Assembly (NCBI RefSeq): GCF_010731795.1
Contig: NZ_AP022591.1
Span: 1,178,001-1,242,000 of the forward strand
Length of the DNA stretch: 64,000 bases
Direction: 5' to 3'
Source: Mycolicibacterium celeriflavum
GTDB lineage: Bacteria; Actinomycetota; Actinomycetes; Mycobacteriales; Mycobacteriaceae
The position numbers and the translations under genes are program-made. The notes beneath the pieces are model-generated. The model did no database searches and was not told where the DNA came from. It worked only from the letters and a program-made list of their open reading frames with translations. Positions 50,209-58,234 of the stretch are shown here, one piece after another (the first letter of the stretch is position 1; every line of letters begins with the position of its first letter).

Positions 50209-51411
50209 ATGAAACTAGACGGCAACCAAGCGTCCATCCGCGAGGCGATCGACGCCGGACTCCTCGCCGGCGCACTGACCCTGGTGTGGCACGCCGGCGA
50301 GGTCCTCCAAGTCAACGAGTTGGGTCATCGCGACGTCGACGCCGGGCTGCCGATGCAACGCGACACGATCTTCCGCATCGCCTCGATGACCAAACCGGTC
50401 ACCGTCGCGGCCGCGATGAGCCTTGTCGACGAGGGCAAACTGGCGCTCACCGACCCCGTCGCGCGGTGGCTGCCCGAACTCGGCGATATGCGGGTGCTGC
50501 TCGACCCGCGCGGTGATCTCGACAAGACCACGCCGGCCCGCAGGCCCATCACGATCGACGATCTCATGACGCACCGCAGCGGCCTGGCCTACGCGTTCTC
50601 GGTGCTCGGCCCGTTGAGCCGGGCGTACGGCAGGATGTCGTTCCGCCAGGATCAGGACCGCTGGCTGGGCGAACTGGCACAGCTTCCGCTGGTGCACCAG
50701 CCCGGTGAACGGCTCACCTACAGCCACGCCACCGACGTGCTGGGGATCGCGTTGTCGCGGATCGAGGGCAAACCGCTGGCCGACGTTCTGCGCGACCGGA
50801 TCTTCGAGCCGCTGCAGATGACCGACACCGGATTCTCGGTGGGCACGGAGGGACGGCGCCGCGCCGCGACGATGTACAAGCTCGACCACAACAACGCGCT
50901 GCAGCACGACGTGATGGGGCCCGCCCACATCACCGATCCGCCGTTCTGCACGGGCGGCGCCGGCCTGTGGTCGACGGTCGACGACTACCTGCGCTTCGCG
51001 CGGATGCTGTTGGCCGGCGGCGCGCTGGACGGCGTCCGCGTGCTGTCGGAGGAGTCGGTTCGGTTGATGCGCACCGACCGGCTCACCGAGGAACAGAAGC
51101 ACCAGAACTTCCTCGGGGCGCCGTTCTGGGTGGGCCGCGGCTTCGGGTTGAACCTGTCGGTGGTCACCGATCCCGCGAAATCACGCCAGCTGTTCGGGCC
51201 GGGTGGGCTGGGCACCTTCAGCTGGCCCGGCGCCTACGGCACCTGGTGGCAGGCCGACCCCTCGGCGGACCTGATCCTGATCTATCTGATCCAGAACCTT
51301 CCCGATCTCAACTTCGACGCCGCCGCGATCGCGGGCAACACCTCACTCGCGAAACTTCAAAGCGCACAGCCGAAGTTCGTCCGCCGCACCTACCAGGCAC
51401 TCGACATCTAG
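50209..51411 (+). CDS. Beta-lactamase-fold serine hydrolase (class C/esterase EstB type)
   Basis: A 400-residue cytoplasmic protein without signal peptide. The SxxK nucleophile motif is IASMTKPV (about residues 61-68), the Tyr motif is LTYSHATDVLG, and FGPGGLGTFSWPGAYGTWW takes the place of the third KTG/HxG motif. Such proteins are mostly esterases (LipE-like in mycobacteria) rather than penicillinases; the substrate is unknown. It is divergent from pyrR and its last 4 bp overlap the flavoprotein gene. Confidence 0.9.
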   Translation: MKLDGNQASIREAIDAGLLAGALTLVWHAGEVLQVNELGHRDVDAGLPMQRDTIFRIASMTKPVTVAAAMSLVDEGKLALTDPVARWLPELGDMRVLLDPRGDLDKTTPARRPITIDDLMTHRSGLAYAFSVLGPLSRAYGRMSFRQDQDRWLGELAQLPLVHQPGERLTYSHATDVLGIALSRIEGKPLADVLRDRIFEPLQMTDTGFSVGTEGRRRAATMYKLDHNNALQHDVMGPAHITDPPFCTGGAGLWSTVDDYLRFARMLLAGGALDGVRVLSEESVRLMRTDRLTEEQKHQNFLGAPFWVGRGFGLNLSVVTDPAKSRQLFGPGGLGTFSWPGAYGTWWQADPSADLILIYLIQNLPDLNFDAAAIAGNTSLAKLQSAQPKFVRRTYQALDI

Positions 51412-54083
51412 GTCAACGCTTGGCGCGCATACGCGCGAACGTCAGCATCGCCGTCTTCGAGCGCGACGCCCAGCGCCTCGCGCGCGCCGGGTTCGCAAGC
51501 AGCCCAACGGGACAGGCTGAGCACGGCGGCCTTGCGGACGTCGAGATGTCGATCGCTGAGCGTCTTGGCCAGGATCGGTACGGCGACCGTCGGCGCCGCA
51601 CCCGACAGCGCGCGGGCGGCCCCCTCACGCACCTGCCATGCCGGCTCGGTCAGCGCCTGCTGCACACCGGGTACGACGTCGTCACCGCAGCCGACGGCCC
51701 CGAGCGCGGCCAGCGCGGCTGCGCGCACCAACGGATCACTGTCGCCGAGGAGGCGTCGCACCGCACCTGCGCCGGCCCCCAGAGTCGCCAGCCCGTTGGC
51801 CGCCGCGATCCGCACTTCGCGGTTCTCGTCACCCGCGGCCGCGGCGACACCGTCCTCGTCGTCCACCGAGACCAGCGCGCGGACCGCCTCGATACGGACC
51901 CGGTGATCGACGTCGGCCACCGCCAGCCGATACGCCGACCGGTCACCCGCCCGCCGGGCGGCCAGGACATGGACCACCACCGCGCGCACCACCGGATCGG
52001 CCGAATAGCACAGCGGCGCAACGGCTTCGGGATCGGGCAGCACCTCCACCAGTTCCCGGATGCCGTCGGCCGCGACGCGTCGCACCTCCGCTTCACCGTC
52101 ACCGAGCGCATCGATCAGCGGCGGCTGATACCCATCGGGCAGATGCTCGACCAGCGTCGTGACTGCGGTGCGGCGCACCGCCGGGTCCGGATCGGCGAGG
52201 AACTCGGCCAGCTGCTCCACCGACGGCGACTCGAGCGCGAGCACGGCGGCGATGCGCGGGGACGGCGGCTGGACCGCCACCGGCTGTACTCGTGTCACCG
52301 CGGTCGCCGGCGGCCGCCCGGCGGCGACAAGCGGCTGCTCGACGCGTGTCACCTCGTCATCCGACGGTAGATGCTCGAGGTCGGTCACCGCGACGAAATA
52401 CGGTGCGACGGGCCGCTTCAGGAACTCCATGGTGCCGTCGGCGGCCTTGCGCAGGTTGAGGTGATAACGCCACCCTTCGTCGTCTCGCTGCGGGATGTCG
52501 GCCCTCTCGTGGTAGAGACCCCATCGTGACTCGGTACGGGTCAGCGACGAGCGCGCAGCCATCTCGGCGCAGTCGCGGATGAACGAGACTTCCACCGCTC
52601 GCATCAACTCATGTGGGGTGGTGGCGCCCATGCCTTCGATCTCGGTGCGCATGCGCTCGAAGGTCTCGACCGCGATCGACAGCTTGGTCGCGGTCTTCGG
52701 CGGCGCCACATAGTCATTGACGAACCGGCGCAGCTTGTACTCGACCTGCGGTTGCGGCGGGCCATGCGGTTGGCGCAGCGGACGGTAGACCAGTTCGTGG
52801 GCCGCCTCGAGCTGGTCCTGCGGCAACGACTGCGGCGCGGCGATCTCTCCCAGCGTCGACGCCGCATGCTCACCGGCGAGGTCGCCGTAGACGAACGCCC
52901 CGATCATGTAATTGTGCGGCACACAGGCCAGGTCGCCGGCCGCGTAGAGCCCCGGGACCGTGGTACGGGCATGCTCGTCGACCCACACCCCCGACGCGGA
53001 ATGGCCACTGCACAGCCCGATCTCAGAGATGTGCATCTCGACGTCGTGGGTGCGGTAGTCATGTCCGCGATTGGCGTGGAACGTACCTCGGGTCGGCCGC
53101 TCGGTGGTGTGCAGGATGCTTTCGAGCGCGTTCAGCGTCTCGTCGGGCAGATGCGACACCTTCAGGTAGATGGGTCCGCGCGCCGATTCGATCTCGCGTT
53201 TGACCTCGGCCATCATCTGTCCCGACCAGTAGTCCGAGTCGACGAACCGCTCCCCCAGGGCGTTGACCTGATAGCCGCCGAACGGGTTGGCCACATACGC
53301 GCATGCCGGTCCGTTGTAGTCCTTGATCAACGGATTCACCTGGAAGCATTCGATCCCCGACAGCTCCGCACCGGCGTGGTAGGCCATCGAGTAGCCGTCA
53401 CCGGCGTTCGTCGGGTTCTCGTAGGTGCCGTACAGGTATCCCGAAGCCGGCAGGCCCAGCCGTCCGCACGGACCCGTCGCCAGGATCACGGCTTTGGCTG
53501 CGACAGCGACGAACTCGCCGGTGCGCGAGTTCAGCGCGGCCGCGCCGACGGCGCGTCCCGTCCGATCAGTGAGGACGCGCACCGGCATCAGCCGGTTCTC
53601 GATGCGGATCTTCTCTCGCATCGAGCGTTGGCGTAGCACCCGGTAGAGCGCCTTCTTGACGTCTTTGCCTTCGGGCATCGGCAGCACGTACGAGCCCGAG
53701 CGGTGCACTCGGCGCACGGCGTACTCACCGTGTTCGTCCTTCTCGAACTTCACTCCGTAGCGCTCGAGACGTTGCACCATCGCGAATCCGCGGGTGGCGG
53801 TCTGATAGATGGTGCGCTGGTTGACGATTCCGTCGTTGGCGCGGGTGATCTCGGCGACGTAGTCCTCCGGCGTGGCCTTACCGGGGATCACGGCGTTGTT
53901 CACTCCGTCCATTCCCATCGCCAACGCTCCGGAGTGCCGGACGTGTGCCTTCTCCAGGAGGAGTACCTGCGCGCCGTGTTCGGCCGCGGTCAGCGCGGCC
54001 ATCGTGCCCGCGGTACCGCCGCCGATCACCAGCACATCACAGTCGAGCCGGGCGGTATCCGCGAGATCAGGTATTTGCATCAT
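51408..54083 (-). CDS. AprA/fumarate-reductase-like flavoprotein fused to HEAT repeats
   Basis: Residues 14-45 hold the FAD Rossmann motif (DVLVIGGGTAG...LLLEK), then RHSGALAMGMDGVNN (49-63), the TNAGDGYSMAYHAGAELSG segment (225-243), HISEIGLCSGHSASG (351-365) and GLYAAGDLACVPHNY (378-392), the pattern of adenylylsulfate reductase alpha/fumarate reductase flavoproteins. After a Pro-rich linker (590-612), residues 615-891 are about eight HEAT-like repeats (for example DPDPAVRRTAV, DHRVRIEAVRAL, SDPLVRAAALAAL). No Tat signal: cytoplasmic. ATG 54081-54083 overlaps the ABC ATPase stop (ATGA). The ferredoxin in the operon is the likely electron partner. Substrate unknown; a sulfur compound is an inference from AprA likeness and the SsuABC-like importer. 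Confidence 0.85.
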   Translation of the reverse strand: MMQIPDLADTARLDCDVLVIGGGTAGTMAALTAAEHGAQVLLLEKAHVRHSGALAMGMDGVNNAVIPGKATPEDYVAEITRANDGIVNQRTIYQTATRGFAMVQRLERYGVKFEKDEHGEYAVRRVHRSGSYVLPMPEGKDVKKALYRVLRQRSMREKIRIENRLMPVRVLTDRTGRAVGAAALNSRTGEFVAVAAKAVILATGPCGRLGLPASGYLYGTYENPTNAGDGYSMAYHAGAELSGIECFQVNPLIKDYNGPACAYVANPFGGYQVNALGERFVDSDYWSGQMMAEVKREIESARGPIYLKVSHLPDETLNALESILHTTERPTRGTFHANRGHDYRTHDVEMHISEIGLCSGHSASGVWVDEHARTTVPGLYAAGDLACVPHNYMIGAFVYGDLAGEHAASTLGEIAAPQSLPQDQLEAAHELVYRPLRQPHGPPQPQVEYKLRRFVNDYVAPPKTATKLSIAVETFERMRTEIEGMGATTPHELMRAVEVSFIRDCAEMAARSSLTRTESRWGLYHERADIPQRDDEGWRYHLNLRKAADGTMEFLKRPVAPYFVAVTDLEHLPSDDEVTRVEQPLVAAGRPPATAVTRVQPVAVQPPSPRIAAVLALESPSVEQLAEFLADPDPAVRRTAVTTLVEHLPDGYQPPLIDALGDGEAEVRRVAADGIRELVEVLPDPEAVAPLCYSADPVVRAVVVHVLAARRAGDRSAYRLAVADVDHRVRIEAVRALVSVDDEDGVAAAAGDENREVRIAAANGLATLGAGAGAVRRLLGDSDPLVRAAALAALGAVGCGDDVVPGVQQALTEPAWQVREGAARALSGAAPTVAVPILAKTLSDRHLDVRKAAVLSLSRWAACEPGAREALGVALEDGDADVRAYARQALT

Positions 54084-54838
54084 GAATGGCGCAGGGCAGC
54101 AAGGATTTCGGCGCGGGCCTCGTGACGCGCGACGTCGTGGGCACGGGGCTCGGGGACCTCGACGAGCGCGCGCAGTGGCTGACCGACCCGGCCCAGGACC
54201 GCGACCCGGTCGCCGAGAATCAGTGCCTCGTCGACATCGTGGGTGACGAACACGACGGTGGTCGGGTGCGCCTGCCACGTCTGGATGAGCAACCGCTGCA
54301 TCGCTGTCCGGGTCTGCGTGTCGAGAGCGGCGAAGGGTTCGTCCATCATCACCGCGCGCGGAGCGCCGGCCAGCCCACGCGCCAGCTGCACGCGCTGACG
54401 CATCCCGCCCGACAGGCTCTTGGGCAGGTAGTCGCCGTAGCCGGTGAGTCCCACTTCGTCGATCCAGCGCAGCGCGCGTTCGCGACGGCCTGCGCGCGGT
54501 GCGCCACGCAGTTGCAGCGCCAGCTCGATGTTGGAACGCACTGTGCGCCAGGGCAGCAGCGCGCTGTCCTGGAATACCATGCCGCGGTCGCGCGAGGTGG
54601 TGCAGACCGGCTCACCGTCGGCGAGCACCCGGCCCGAGTCTGGGAGCAGCAACCCCGTCAAGGCTCGCAACACCGTCGATTTGCCGCAGCCGGACGGTCC
54701 GGTGAGCACCAGGATCTCTTCGGGTTGCACGGTCAGGGTCAACCCGTCGACGACCGGCGCATCGGTGTAGGACAACCGCACGTCGTCGAGTTCGAGCCGC
54801 ATTCCCCGCAACGCCGCAGGGGCCGGTGATGTGGTCAT
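54080..54838 (-). CDS. SsuB/TauB-type ABC transporter ATPase
   Basis: A 252-residue nitrate/sulfonate/taurine-class ATPase: Walker A GPSGCGKST, Q-loop VFQDSALLPW, signature LSGGMRQRVQLA, Walker B AVMMDEPFAALD, switch VTHDVDEA. It starts in the permease stop (ATGA) and its own stop overlaps the flavoprotein start. It should energise import with the neighbouring SsuC-like permease. Confidence 0.94.
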   Translation of the reverse strand: MTTSPAPAALRGMRLELDDVRLSYTDAPVVDGLTLTVQPEEILVLTGPSGCGKSTVLRALTGLLLPDSGRVLADGEPVCTTSRDRGMVFQDSALLPWRTVRSNIELALQLRGAPRAGRRERALRWIDEVGLTGYGDYLPKSLSGGMRQRVQLARGLAGAPRAVMMDEPFAALDTQTRTAMQRLLIQTWQAHPTTVVFVTHDVDEALILGDRVAVLGRVGQPLRALVEVPEPRAHDVARHEARAEILAALRHS

Positions 54839-55686
54839 CGGTTGTTCTCCTCAGCGCGGGGCAGCCAATGGGTGGCGCGTCTGCCGATCAGTTCCACCGC
54901 GGCGGCGGTGGTGAATCCCAGGATCCCGATCGTGATGATGCCGACGAGGACGTCGGAATAATTGAGCACCGTATAGGCCTGCCAGGTGCGGTAACCGACA
55001 CCGAGGCGACCCGAGATCATCTCCGCGGAGATCACGCAGATCCAGGCCACTCCCATGCCCACCGACAATCCGCCGAACAGGCCGGGCAGGATGCCCGGCA
55101 GCACCACGCGCCGCAGCACGTCCCATCCCCCGCCGCCCAGCGTGCGCACCGAGTCCTCCCAGATGGTCGGCAGCGCCCGTACCGCGTGCCGAGTGCTGAC
55201 CATGATCGGGAAGTAGGCCGCCAGGAACGTGATGAACACGATTCCCGCCTCGTCGGTGGGGAACAACAGGATCGCGACAGGCACCATCGCGATCGCCGGG
55301 ATCGGTCGCGCGAGTTCGGTGAGCGGTCCGAAGACATCGGCGAAGGCCGCCGAGCGCCCGAGCATGATGCCGGTGATCACGCCGACGACCGCCGCCAATC
55401 CGAAGCCGGTCAGGATGCGTATCAGCGACTGACCCAGATCCAGCCAGTACTCCGGGGTGCCGAGGCGATTCGCCAGCGCAACAGCGACTTCGGTGACCGT
55501 CGGCAGCGTGTCGAAACGCAACCACAACCGGACGTCGTTGGCCGTCAGCACCTGCCACAGCCCCACTGCGGCGACCACGGAGGCCAATCGTAGGAGCCGG
55601 CGCCGCCACAGCGCCGCTTGCGGACGGCGGACCGGCGCGGTTTCCACGTGCACCGGCGACTCGAGCACCTCGACGACTGCGGTCAT
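54835..55686 (-). CDS. SsuC-type ABC transporter permease
   Basis: The 283-residue protein has about six helices between residues 30 and 270 and the EAA-like coupling loop around RTLGGGGWDVLRRVVLPGILPGLFGGL, as in sulfonate/nitrate/taurine permeases. Overlaps of 4 nt with both neighbours (SBP and ATPase) tie it to one transport complex. The N-terminal 25 residues are cytoplasmic. Confidence 0.94.
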   Translation of the reverse strand: MTAVVEVLESPVHVETAPVRRPQAALWRRRLLRLASVVAAVGLWQVLTANDVRLWLRFDTLPTVTEVAVALANRLGTPEYWLDLGQSLIRILTGFGLAAVVGVITGIMLGRSAAFADVFGPLTELARPIPAIAMVPVAILLFPTDEAGIVFITFLAAYFPIMVSTRHAVRALPTIWEDSVRTLGGGGWDVLRRVVLPGILPGLFGGLSVGMGVAWICVISAEMISGRLGVGYRTWQAYTVLNYSDVLVGIITIGILGFTTAAAVELIGRRATHWLPRAEENNR

Positions 55687-57128
55687 GCCGCACCCGCCAG
55701 CGCCTGCTCGTAGTCGACTGCGGCGCTACCGGGGTGGGCTGCGATGAACCGTTGGGCACCACCGGGAGTGGCGAACGGCAAATAGGTTTGACCGTCCTTC
55801 ACCCAGATCGCCTTGTCGGCGAACCACCGCGTGCCGAATTCGGTGTCTGGCACATACGCGGCCCGGACCACCGCGCCCCGTGCCTTGGCCTCCCGAACGG
55901 CCTTGAGAAGGCAGGCCGGTGAGGCCGCCGGCTGGGTTGCCTCGGCGCCGTCGAGCCACAGTTCGCCGGCTTTCGCCGGGTCCGCGACTTCGATGTGGCA
56001 CACCGGATCGGTGCCCTCGATGAGCGACGGGTTCGCCGTCGCCGCCAGCGCCCTGTCGTAGTCCAGGCCACGCGCATCGAACGCCGCGCGCAGCGGGGCG
56101 TCGTGCACGAAGCCTGCCACGTCCAGGTCGGCGAAGTCGCCGATCGACTCCAGGTACGGCACATCGCCTTTCAACGCCTCGACCAGCGACGGCTTCAGCG
56201 TCGTGTCGAACGATGTGCCGCCGGGGCCGTTGTAGAGATACACCACTTCCTGCGGGAGACCGCTGTCCTCGGCGACGATGCGCGCCGCTTCCAGTGGCTT
56301 GTCGTTGAGGAAGTCGGTGGCGTCCAGCTGCGCCTGCAGGAACGCGTCGAGGACTTCGGGATGGTCGGCCGCATACGCGCGGCGTACCACCACCCCGTGC
56401 AGGGTCGGGTAGTTCCCCTCGGCGCCGTCGTAGAGCAGCTTGGCCTTGTCCTGGTAGACCAGCAGGCCCGGCCAGGCGACGAACTGCGACAGTGCCTGGA
56501 CCTGCCCGGATTCCAATGCCGACGCACCGATCTGCGGCTGCTGGTTGAGGACTTCCACGCCGGTCTTCGGATCGACACCCGCGTTGGACAGTGCCCGCAC
56601 CAGGGTGCCGTGCCCCGCCGAGCCGACACTGGCCGACACCTTCTGGCCCTTCAGGTCGGTGAGCGTCTGCACGGGCGAGTTCGGCGTCACCACAACCATG
56701 TTCAACGCGCCGCGCGGATGGTAGCCGGTGACCGAGACGATCTGGGTGCGGGCCCGCTCGTTGGCCTGCGTGCTGGATCCGTTGATCAGCATCGGATAGT
56801 CACCCATCGAGCCGATGTCGATCTTCTCGGCGACCATCTGCGCCGTGATCGGCGCCCCCGTGTCGTAGTCCTGCCAGTTCACCTTGTATTCGGTACCGGT
56901 GCGGTCGGTGACGCCGGAAAGTCGCCGTTCCAGAAAACCTTTGGCACGCAGCAGTGTGCCCGCGGTGACGGTGTTGATGGTCTTGGACTGGTAGCCGATG
57001 ACGACGTCGACGACGTCACCGGAGGAGTTCGTGGCGGTGTCGAGCGTGCAGCCGGCGGTCGCAACGGATATTCCGGCGGCCAGCACGACCAGCCGGATCA
57101 GCGGTCGGGTCATGGTGCGGGTCCTCAT
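55683..57128 (-). CDS. SsuA/NMT1-type substrate-binding lipoprotein with NosL-like C-terminal domain
   Basis: The 481-residue protein has a lipoprotein signal (lipobox ATAGC, Cys22-27 depending on start) and an SBP fold (about 35-370: VIGYQSKTINTVTAG, DIGSMGDYPML, ASVGSAGHGTLVRAL) typical of sulfonate/nitrate/thiamine-precursor receptors. The last 105 residues (from DPVCHIEVADP) are extra; EFGTRWFADKAIWVKDG and LPFATPGGAQRFIAAHPG resemble the NosL copper-binding fold of nitrous-oxide-reductase assembly proteins. ATG 57126-57128 overlaps the ferredoxin stop (ATGA); an ATG five codons on is possible. The NosL assignment is by eye and needs profile search. Confidence 0.85.
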   Translation of the reverse strand: MRTRTMTRPLIRLVVLAAGISVATAGCTLDTATNSSGDVVDVVIGYQSKTINTVTAGTLLRAKGFLERRLSGVTDRTGTEYKVNWQDYDTGAPITAQMVAEKIDIGSMGDYPMLINGSSTQANERARTQIVSVTGYHPRGALNMVVVTPNSPVQTLTDLKGQKVSASVGSAGHGTLVRALSNAGVDPKTGVEVLNQQPQIGASALESGQVQALSQFVAWPGLLVYQDKAKLLYDGAEGNYPTLHGVVVRRAYAADHPEVLDAFLQAQLDATDFLNDKPLEAARIVAEDSGLPQEVVYLYNGPGGTSFDTTLKPSLVEALKGDVPYLESIGDFADLDVAGFVHDAPLRAAFDARGLDYDRALAATANPSLIEGTDPVCHIEVADPAKAGELWLDGAEATQPAASPACLLKAVREAKARGAVVRAAYVPDTEFGTRWFADKAIWVKDGQTYLPFATPGGAQRFIAAHPGSAAVDYEQALAGAA

Positions 57129-57352
57129 CGGATCAGGTAGGGCATGTTGACGGTGACGGCGCCGGTGGGACAGCGCGCTGCGCAGGGTCCGCAATACCAG
57201 CACTCGTCGACATGCATGAAGGCCTTGCCGTTGTCGGGGTTGATCGCCAGCGAGTCGAGCGGGCAGATGTCGACGCACAGCGTGCAGCCCTCGATGCACA
57301 GCGACTCGTCGATCGTCACCGGCACATCGGCACGTTGGTTGACCAGTGTCAC
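57125..57352 (-). CDS. 2[4Fe-4S] ferredoxin (AprB-like)
   Basis: A 75-residue cytoplasmic ferredoxin. Cluster ligands are Cys19, 23, 26, 30 (CIEGCTLCVDICP, with a three-residue first spacing) and Cys51, 54, 57, 61 (CWYCGPCAARCP). This resembles the small AprB-type partner of adenylylsulfate reductase more than a stand-alone FdxA. GTG 57350-57352 overlaps the GntR stop (GTGA). It probably passes electrons to or from the flavoprotein at the operon's end. Confidence 0.93.
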   Translation of the reverse strand: MTLVNQRADVPVTIDESLCIEGCTLCVDICPLDSLAINPDNGKAFMHVDECWYCGPCAARCPTGAVTVNMPYLIR

Positions 57353-58092
57353 GGGATGCTCCTCAGCAGGTTGCCGCGCATGGTGATTCGGTCACCACGC
57401 ATGCGGATGTATTCGAGGTCGACGGGCCTGCCGTCATCGAGTCTGGTGAGCCGCTCGAGCATCAGCAGCGCAGCCCCGGCGGGAATCTGCAGCGTCGCAG
57501 CCGAATGCGCGTCCGCCGCAACGGCTTCGAGCGCTAGCGAGGCGGTGCCCAGCCGCTGGCCGCTGACCTGCTCGATGAGCGCGAACACGTCGTTGGTCTC
57601 CAGCGGGTGGGCCAGCACCGCGGCCGCGACGTCCGCCACCAGATAGGTCAGGTCAAGGGAGAGCGGCAGGTCCCCCAGATAGCGCAGCCGCTCCACGAAG
57701 ACGACCTGCGCTCCGGGATCCAGGCACAGCTTGCGGGCCACCGCGGGCGGTGCGGCCAAGTGCTGTACCGCCCTGACCTCATTGCGGACTTCACCGTATT
57801 CCTTGAAGGTCTCCTGCAAACCGACCAGTGCGTCGAGCCCGTGGTCGTACTTGCGCACCGCAACGTGCGTGCCGGTTCTGGGTCCGCGCTCGATGAGTCC
57901 CTCGTCCTTCAACACCGAGAGCGCTTCACGAATGGTGTTGCGCGAGACGAAGAACTCCGCGGCCAGCTCCTGCTCGCCGGGTAGAGCGCTGTCGAAGGCG
58001 CCCGCATGGATCTGGTGGCGCAGCACATCGGCGACCTGACGGGCACGGTCGGCGCGCGGTCTGCGCAGAGGCGTCGGCTCGGGCTGCGACAT
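57349..58092 (-). CDS. GntR-family (HutC/UTRA) transcription regulator
   Basis: The 247 residues have an N-terminal winged HTH (about 17-80: LPGEQELAAEFFVSRNTIREALSVL) and a C-terminal UTRA ligand domain (about 95-235; ends with GRPVDLEYIRMRGDR). UTRA domains sense small metabolites. It is first in the operon and should autoregulate it. The ATG at 58090-58092 has no Shine-Dalgarno; TACCGT six nt upstream marks a leaderless start, and an inverted repeat lies at the -35 region. Confidence 0.93.
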   Translation of the reverse strand: MSQPEPTPLRRPRADRARQVADVLRHQIHAGAFDSALPGEQELAAEFFVSRNTIREALSVLKDEGLIERGPRTGTHVAVRKYDHGLDALVGLQETFKEYGEVRNEVRAVQHLAAPPAVARKLCLDPGAQVVFVERLRYLGDLPLSLDLTYLVADVAAAVLAHPLETNDVFALIEQVSGQRLGTASLALEAVAADAHSAATLQIPAGAALLMLERLTRLDDGRPVDLEYIRMRGDRITMRGNLLRSIP

Positions 58093-58138: not shown

Positions 58139-58234
58139 GCCGGCGACCCGGACGATCCGCGCTTTGCGCCGCTTGGATCACCGGCTCACCAGGCGAAAGA
58201 CCGGAACGCGAGCGGCATTGCGCCACTTGCCTAC

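Follow-up and report, generated by a model that had tools for sequence, protein, structure and literature searches.

The window analyzed here, a stretch of 64,000 nucleotides from the single 5.02 Mb contig of the Mycolicibacterium celeriflavum genome (NZ_AP022591.1, positions 1,178,001 to 1,242,000), contains a six-gene operon coding for a GntR/UTRA regulator, a ferredoxin, the binding protein, permease and ATPase of an importer, and a flavoprotein fused to HEAT repeats (Table 1). It is tentatively proposed that this operon serves to import a sulfo-compound of small size, probably an organic ester of sulfate (R-O-SO3), and to cleave it reductively to sulfite. An earlier note on this DNA had described a regulated uptake-and-redox operon, a description that the sequence supports and that holds well outside this genome; the six genes were confirmed at 51408-58092, all on the minus strand, and the families assigned to them agree with Pfam and NCBIfam. 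The gene content, gene order, conservation, domain families, residue changes and exchange of enzyme partners set out below are read directly from the sequences.

Conservation of the operon

The six-gene operon is a conserved module, beyond what chance would give. Co-occurrence of the six families, which the earlier note had named as a check, is seen in 74 of 80 actinobacterial loci, where all six genes stand in the same order; these loci are the best 80 of 589 matches in a named-genome scan, and the sample thus consists of close relatives. Five of the six incomplete loci are cut upstream, and the sixth, from a contig of 6.2 kb (L124), is incomplete only in that no ferredoxin was called. The HEAT repeats lie in the same frame as the flavoprotein in 72 of the 74 complete loci, with the other two stopping at a contig end. 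The flavoprotein scores above its curated cut-off in 212 of 395 genomes of the window's genus and in 20 of 396 Actinomycetota genomes, with distant matches in two more; in the latter set the binding protein was found in 22 genomes, at 24 places, and all 20 flavoprotein genomes are among these, the two genes sharing a contig and lying no more than about 5 kb apart.

The link between flavoprotein and transporter is kept far beyond this genome. Plasmid-borne relatives come from cyanobacteria, alpha-, beta- and gammaproteobacteria and Acidithiobacillus, and the 13 plasmid flavoproteins that were aligned are 55 to 62% identical. Among 14 plasmid loci read, the HEAT repeats form a separate gene in 13 and the family's importer is nearby in 12; the neighbors include DUF971 (6 loci), Mrp/NBP35 (3 loci) and a TauE-type exporter (3 loci, beside two of which YeiH is also found). 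At least 80% of the binding protein is present in 41 plasmid records, and 39 of these also carry the flavoprotein.

There are also signs of decay: in the Acidithiobacillus caldus plasmids (L044, L135 and L137) the module looks degraded, with an ISL3 element at the binding-protein gene, and in one of them only a short piece of the flavoprotein lies in the stretch read. In three genomes (G031, G481 and G572) the flavoprotein match falls into two pieces, a possible sign of occasional loss.

Exchange of enzyme partners

The two plasmid records with the binding protein but no flavoprotein, namely Gordonia amicalis pCP113 and a Paraburkholderia plasmid, carry instead a GntR regulator, an arylsulfatase and a formylglycine-generating enzyme, along with SulP (annotated on the Paraburkholderia plasmid and present as SulP-like frames on pCP113). 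The same pattern recurs in the Actinomycetota, where four of the 24 binding-protein places are without the flavoprotein; three of them (L140-L142, from two genomes of the window's genus and a third in its family) combine GntR, a sulfatase, its maturase and SulP, and the fourth (L143) lacks the sulfatase set. A search with the sulfatase found it in 32 of the 395 genomes of the genus, and 12 of 20 further sulfatase regions carry the binding protein, permease and ATPase (in L168 with the binding protein in two frames). In a tree of the binding proteins the sulfatase-linked members occupy two places: a single protein groups next to Methylobacterium radiotolerans, and the other four lie among the actinobacteria. 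The starred branches require the partner to have changed twice. Comparison of 13 flavoprotein-linked with five sulfatase-linked binding proteins reveals 57 fixed positions in common and only one that differs.

The two sulfatases that were read start at the catalytic domain, show no signal peptide and carry CTPTR; given this start, they should act in the cytosol after import. The exchange with a sulfatase, together with the shared fixed positions of the binding proteins, is the main reason for thinking of a sulfate ester: a sulfatase as the alternative partner of the transporter suggests sulfate esters rather than sulfonates, and such an ester is our favored, if still tentative, choice of substrate. 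By extension, though this is a slightly more hesitant proposal, a reductive sulfatase may occur across actinobacteria, cyanobacteria and proteobacteria, exchanged with the formylglycine sulfatase behind the same transporter.

The flavoprotein and its ferredoxin

Over its whole length the flavoprotein fits NF010374 (PRK13800) with 1709 bits against a cut-off of 1196, and it also exceeds the cut-off of NF006131 (PRK08275) with 882 bits; the names of both speak only of fumarate reductase/succinate dehydrogenase, without a pathway. Over the flavin domain, the part searched, the nearest protein record is one of M. celeriflavum with 100% identity. Its best solved relative is the alpha subunit of a PAPS reductase (8a8o, 5.8e-57, residues 9-559), followed by APS reductase (2fja, 1.3e-29), and the profile matches of the ferredoxin include 3gyx_B and 8a8o_C. 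On the NCBIfam aprA equivalog, the flavoprotein reaches 139.7 bits, below the cut-off of 641.75. Two distant AprAB-like loci, L152 and L153, served as a yardstick for the pair. Their small subunits share the CWxC..C...CP motif with the ferredoxin and read CWDC where it has ECWYC, and Asn62 and His361 are common to the flavoprotein family and AprAB-type enzymes.

The differences lie at the substrate site. Arg265 of Archaeoglobus fulgidus AprA (the number being counted in a pairwise alignment), which acts at the sulfo group of the APS site, is retained in L152 and L153, whereas the corresponding position is Leu252 in 23 of 23 family members. The substrate loop is likewise replaced by an invariant VLPMP stretch. 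In a pairwise alignment, Lys120-Arg121-Ser122, the residues that PMC10322725 names for the PAPS reductase MtPAPSR, correspond to His127-Arg128-Ser129, of which the His is invariant and the other two vary. On these comparisons the pair is AprAB-like in build and, with the APS-site Arg replaced by Leu in all 23 members, is not an APS reductase by its sequence. The "AprAB-type" label of the earlier note thus holds for the likeness of the flavoprotein to AprA and of the ferredoxin to AprB, and fails at the APS-site Arg.

Two assignments were consequently set aside: that of a true APS reductase, on account of this Arg-to-Leu change, and that of a succinate dehydrogenase/fumarate reductase, as the active-site motifs differ. 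In the alignment to 1nek, the HPT site of SdhA reads NPL and the His that holds its covalent FAD aligns to Gly.

In Methylobacterium radiotolerans, FdxA and a ferredoxin-NADP reductase follow the module, which fits an electron flow toward the substrate. Around L152, neighboring frames read as sulfite reductase, ATP sulfurylase, and siroheme and cysteine synthases, and this locus also holds a binding protein, ATPase and permease. It belongs to a small actinobacterial genome, in which the AprAB-like pair is possibly part of an assimilatory APS reductase route, suggesting that such a pair can sit in an assimilatory cluster.

The importer and its binding protein

The binding protein, permease and ATPase are of the SsuA/TauA, TauC and TauB types, respectively, and each scores below the listed cut-offs of the curated equivalogs. 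According to PMC3839906 the contacts of SsuA to the sulfo group include Gln36, Gly68, Gly86 and Ser141; of these, Gln36 and Gly68 are conserved in 18 of 18 binding proteins, where they appear as Q47 and G91.

The binding protein has a C-terminal extension, not described in the earlier note, that appears to be of NosL type: PF05573 (NosL) matches 11 of 13 members at E up to 1, with a best value of 1.3e-6, and the window's own protein is without a match. Of the 105 aligned rows of this domain (which include a few pieces of one protein), 45 have both of its Cys residues, 59 have neither and one has a single Cys, and since the two are mostly kept or lost together, a disulfide is likelier than a metal site. 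The idea that a NosL copper site explains the function was rejected on this pattern. A structure comparison with the binding-protein model, confined to residues 37-365, gave no NosL structure among the matches listed.

In two cyanobacteria, a LysR-type regulator carries a C-terminal domain of the binding-protein family (L040, 5673-7673, and L048, 5307-7343; 219 and 230 bits). Such fusions indicate that regulator and importer probably see the same ligand.

A model of the pathway

The following course of events may be envisaged. The SsuA-like protein, with its putative NosL-type extension, would recognize the sulfo group of the ligand, and the permease and ATPase would then carry the ligand into the cell. 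Through its conserved Trp, the ferredoxin would hand low-potential electrons to the FAD. Once reduced, the FAD would accept the sulfo group at N5, as has been proposed for APS reductase, and R-OH and sulfite would be released. The model for this step is the attack of flavin N5 on sulfur that is proposed for the methanogen PAPS reductase in PMC10322725. The sulfite could pass to the siroheme sulfite reductase encoded beside CysH, the HEAT part might serve as a docking scaffold, and the GntR/UTRA regulator would respond to the ligand or a product, with the operon's own repeats as its target.

The reduction of sulfate to sulfite lies near -516 mV and that of APS to sulfite near -60 mV; by our own estimate an ordinary sulfate ester would fall between them, perhaps around -400 mV. 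Reduction of an ester would then need a low-potential ferredoxin, which fits the gene set. That the operon is distinct from the CysH route, as the earlier note had it, is borne out by a PAPS_reduct match at C1:239533-240033, about 1 Mb away, adjoined by a sulfite reductase-type match at 240159-241340.

Alternative readings

Several observations weigh against the reduction of a sulfate ester. Eight of the 20 further sulfatase regions did not show the transporter: four are cut at a contig end, two have another transporter with SulP and two have a sulfatase of 52% identity. In the genus sample, the flavoprotein and sulfatase systems coexist in 25 of the 32 sulfatase genomes; with the flavoprotein found in 215 of 395 genomes at E 1e-100, this is above expectation (Fisher p 0.005, uncorrected for kinship), so the two are not simple substitutes; they have the look of complements, perhaps with different substrates. 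In a third variant, seen in two phyla (L143 and the Paenibacillus locus L136), the transporter family is joined to GH36-like and galactokinase-like proteins, and no sulfur enzyme was recognized in either of these loci. Among the 13 flavoprotein-linked binding proteins, the Gly86 position of SsuA is Gly in five and Ala in eight, and the Ser141 position is Ala in six and Thr in seven; nitrate and bicarbonate are likewise among the ligands of proteins with this fold. Further, 13 of 52 flavoprotein plasmid records fall outside the 41 with a full-length binding protein, those of Nostoc edaphicum and Ensifer adhaerens among them, and in Nostoc edaphicum there are weak matches alone (59 and 92 bits) beside the flavoprotein. 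Finally, the loss of the APS-site Arg could mean some other chemistry, and the structure model of the flavin domain is poor, the model of the flavoprotein with its HEAT part having a mean pLDDT of 62 and being used only for the extent of the HEAT repeats.

A sulfonate (C-S), imported in SsuABC/TauABC-like fashion and relieved of its sulfite by the flavoprotein without oxygen, appears rather unlikely: on chemical reasoning, flavin attack on the sulfur would need a carbanion leaving group, and both the pairing of the transporter with a sulfatase elsewhere and the 57 positions held in common with the sulfatase-linked binding proteins speak against it. The same flavin chemistry might act on another sulfo-compound, such as a sulfamate (N-SO3), an S-sulfonate or an inorganic sulfur oxyanion; the L140 sulfatase matches SGSH_C weakly (1e-7), and sulfatase-family enzymes can also cut N-SO3, but nothing specific points there and we regard this as unlikely. 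The NCBIfam name of the flavoprotein, the variant with galactoside enzymes, and the nitrate and bicarbonate taken by the binding-protein fold would suit a small sulfur-free anion or organic acid, comparable to the substrates of fumarate reductase-like flavoproteins and NMT1-type binding proteins, but the altered SdhA motifs and the sulfatase, SulP, TauE and YeiH neighbors leave this quite unlikely. That the pair is after all a true APS or PAPS reductase, for which the importer merely supplies a sulfur source, is very improbable: although its nearest solved relatives are just such enzymes, it has Leu252 for the Arg seen in L152 and L153, the VLPMP stretch in place of the Lys120-Arg121-Ser122 loop, and no ATP sulfurylase among the six genes, and a CysH-type gene is found elsewhere in the genome.

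Gene arrangement and a candidate operator

The 4-nt overlap claimed earlier for every junction is present in the sequence at all five (GTGA at the first, ATGA at the four that follow), and is firm at four; the start of the binding protein, and hence its overlap with the ferredoxin gene, is doubtful. A public M. celeriflavum record of this protein (P0142, 99% identity) has 476 rather than 481 amino acids, which fits a start 15 nt downstream. This overlap is found in just three of 74 related loci, whereas that of permease and ATPase is kept in 71, that of binding protein and permease in 67, that of ATPase and flavoprotein in 54 and that of gntR and ferredoxin in 44.

Table 1. Features of the operon, in window positions
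Feature	Positions	Strand	Basis
GntR/UTRA (HutC-type) regulator, 247 aa	57349..58092	-	Pfam GntR 2.6e-16, UTRA 1.6e-30
AprB-like 2[4Fe-4S] ferredoxin, 75 aa	57125..57352	-	eight invariant Cys, invariant Trp in ECWYC
SsuA/TauA-like lipoprotein binding protein	55683..57128	-	likely start 57113 (476 aa); Pfam/NCBIfam
Putative C-terminal NosL-type extension of binding protein (~residues 366-481)	55686..56033	-	PF05573 in relatives; high-confidence model stretch
SsuC/TauC-like permease, 283 aa	54835..55686	-	Pfam/NCBIfam
SsuB/TauB-like ATPase, 252 aa	54080..54838	-	Pfam/NCBIfam
AprA-like flavoprotein fused to HEAT repeats, 891 aa	51408..54083	-	NCBIfam NF010374, 1709 bits
Flavin domain of flavoprotein, residues 1-575	52359..54083	-	
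HEAT-repeat domain of flavoprotein, ~residues 609-890	51411..52259	-	
Candidate operator upstream of gntR: direct GGCGCAA repeats, two copies 54 bp apart	58161..58226	-	

GGCGCAA is present ahead of gntR in 55 of 73 loci (2.96 per set in a letter-shuffled control), and two copies spaced by 52-55 bp are seen in 32 of the 73 (0.0 per set in the control). These paired repeats, conserved before the operon in its relatives, constitute a candidate operator. The longer form GTGGCGCAATR has eight sites in the genome against three for a reversed control; since a second copy lies nearby only at the operon's own site, this genome-wide scan gave no sign of a wider regulon. Palindromes and a GntR-site pattern were also sought upstream of gntR, with nothing shared.

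A beta-lactamase-like reading frame meets the operon tail to tail, and flanking frames read as NusB, elongation factor P and PyrR. The mycobacterial neighbor genes gave no functional clue, the readable ones being housekeeping genes and the list consisting mostly of overlapping reading frames.

Implications

If the proposed function is true, it would add a further bacterial route by which sulfate esters are opened, through reduction and not by hydrolysis or oxygenation, and would deliver sulfite directly, skipping the ATP-costly activation of sulfate. As the flavoprotein is common in the genus and yet labeled fumarate reductase/succinate dehydrogenase, a widely distributed part of sulfur metabolism may be carrying the wrong name. 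Searches of the open-licence literature found no description of this module.

Comparison with known systems

With AprAB and the PAPS reductase of Methanothermococcus thermolithotrophicus (8a8o), the operon's enzyme shares an alpha subunit that bears FAD and belongs to the fumarate reductase superfamily, a small subunit in which two [4Fe-4S] clusters are accompanied by a Trp beside a cluster Cys, and the Asn and His residues (N62 and H361). Unlike them, it has Leu at the position of Arg265 and a different substrate loop, its flavoprotein is fused or linked to HEAT repeats, and it comes with an importer and without ATP sulfurylase. The binding protein, permease and ATPase resemble SsuABC and TauABC in fold and sequence, but the binding protein of the window's family has the putative NosL-type C-terminal extension, and the importer is partnered by a flavoprotein or a sulfatase; none of the six genes codes for an SsuD or TauD monooxygenase. 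In the Ats systems, an SsuA-type transporter for sulfate esters is paired with a sulfatase; the window's operon differs from them in having a flavin and iron-sulfur pair where they have the sulfatase.
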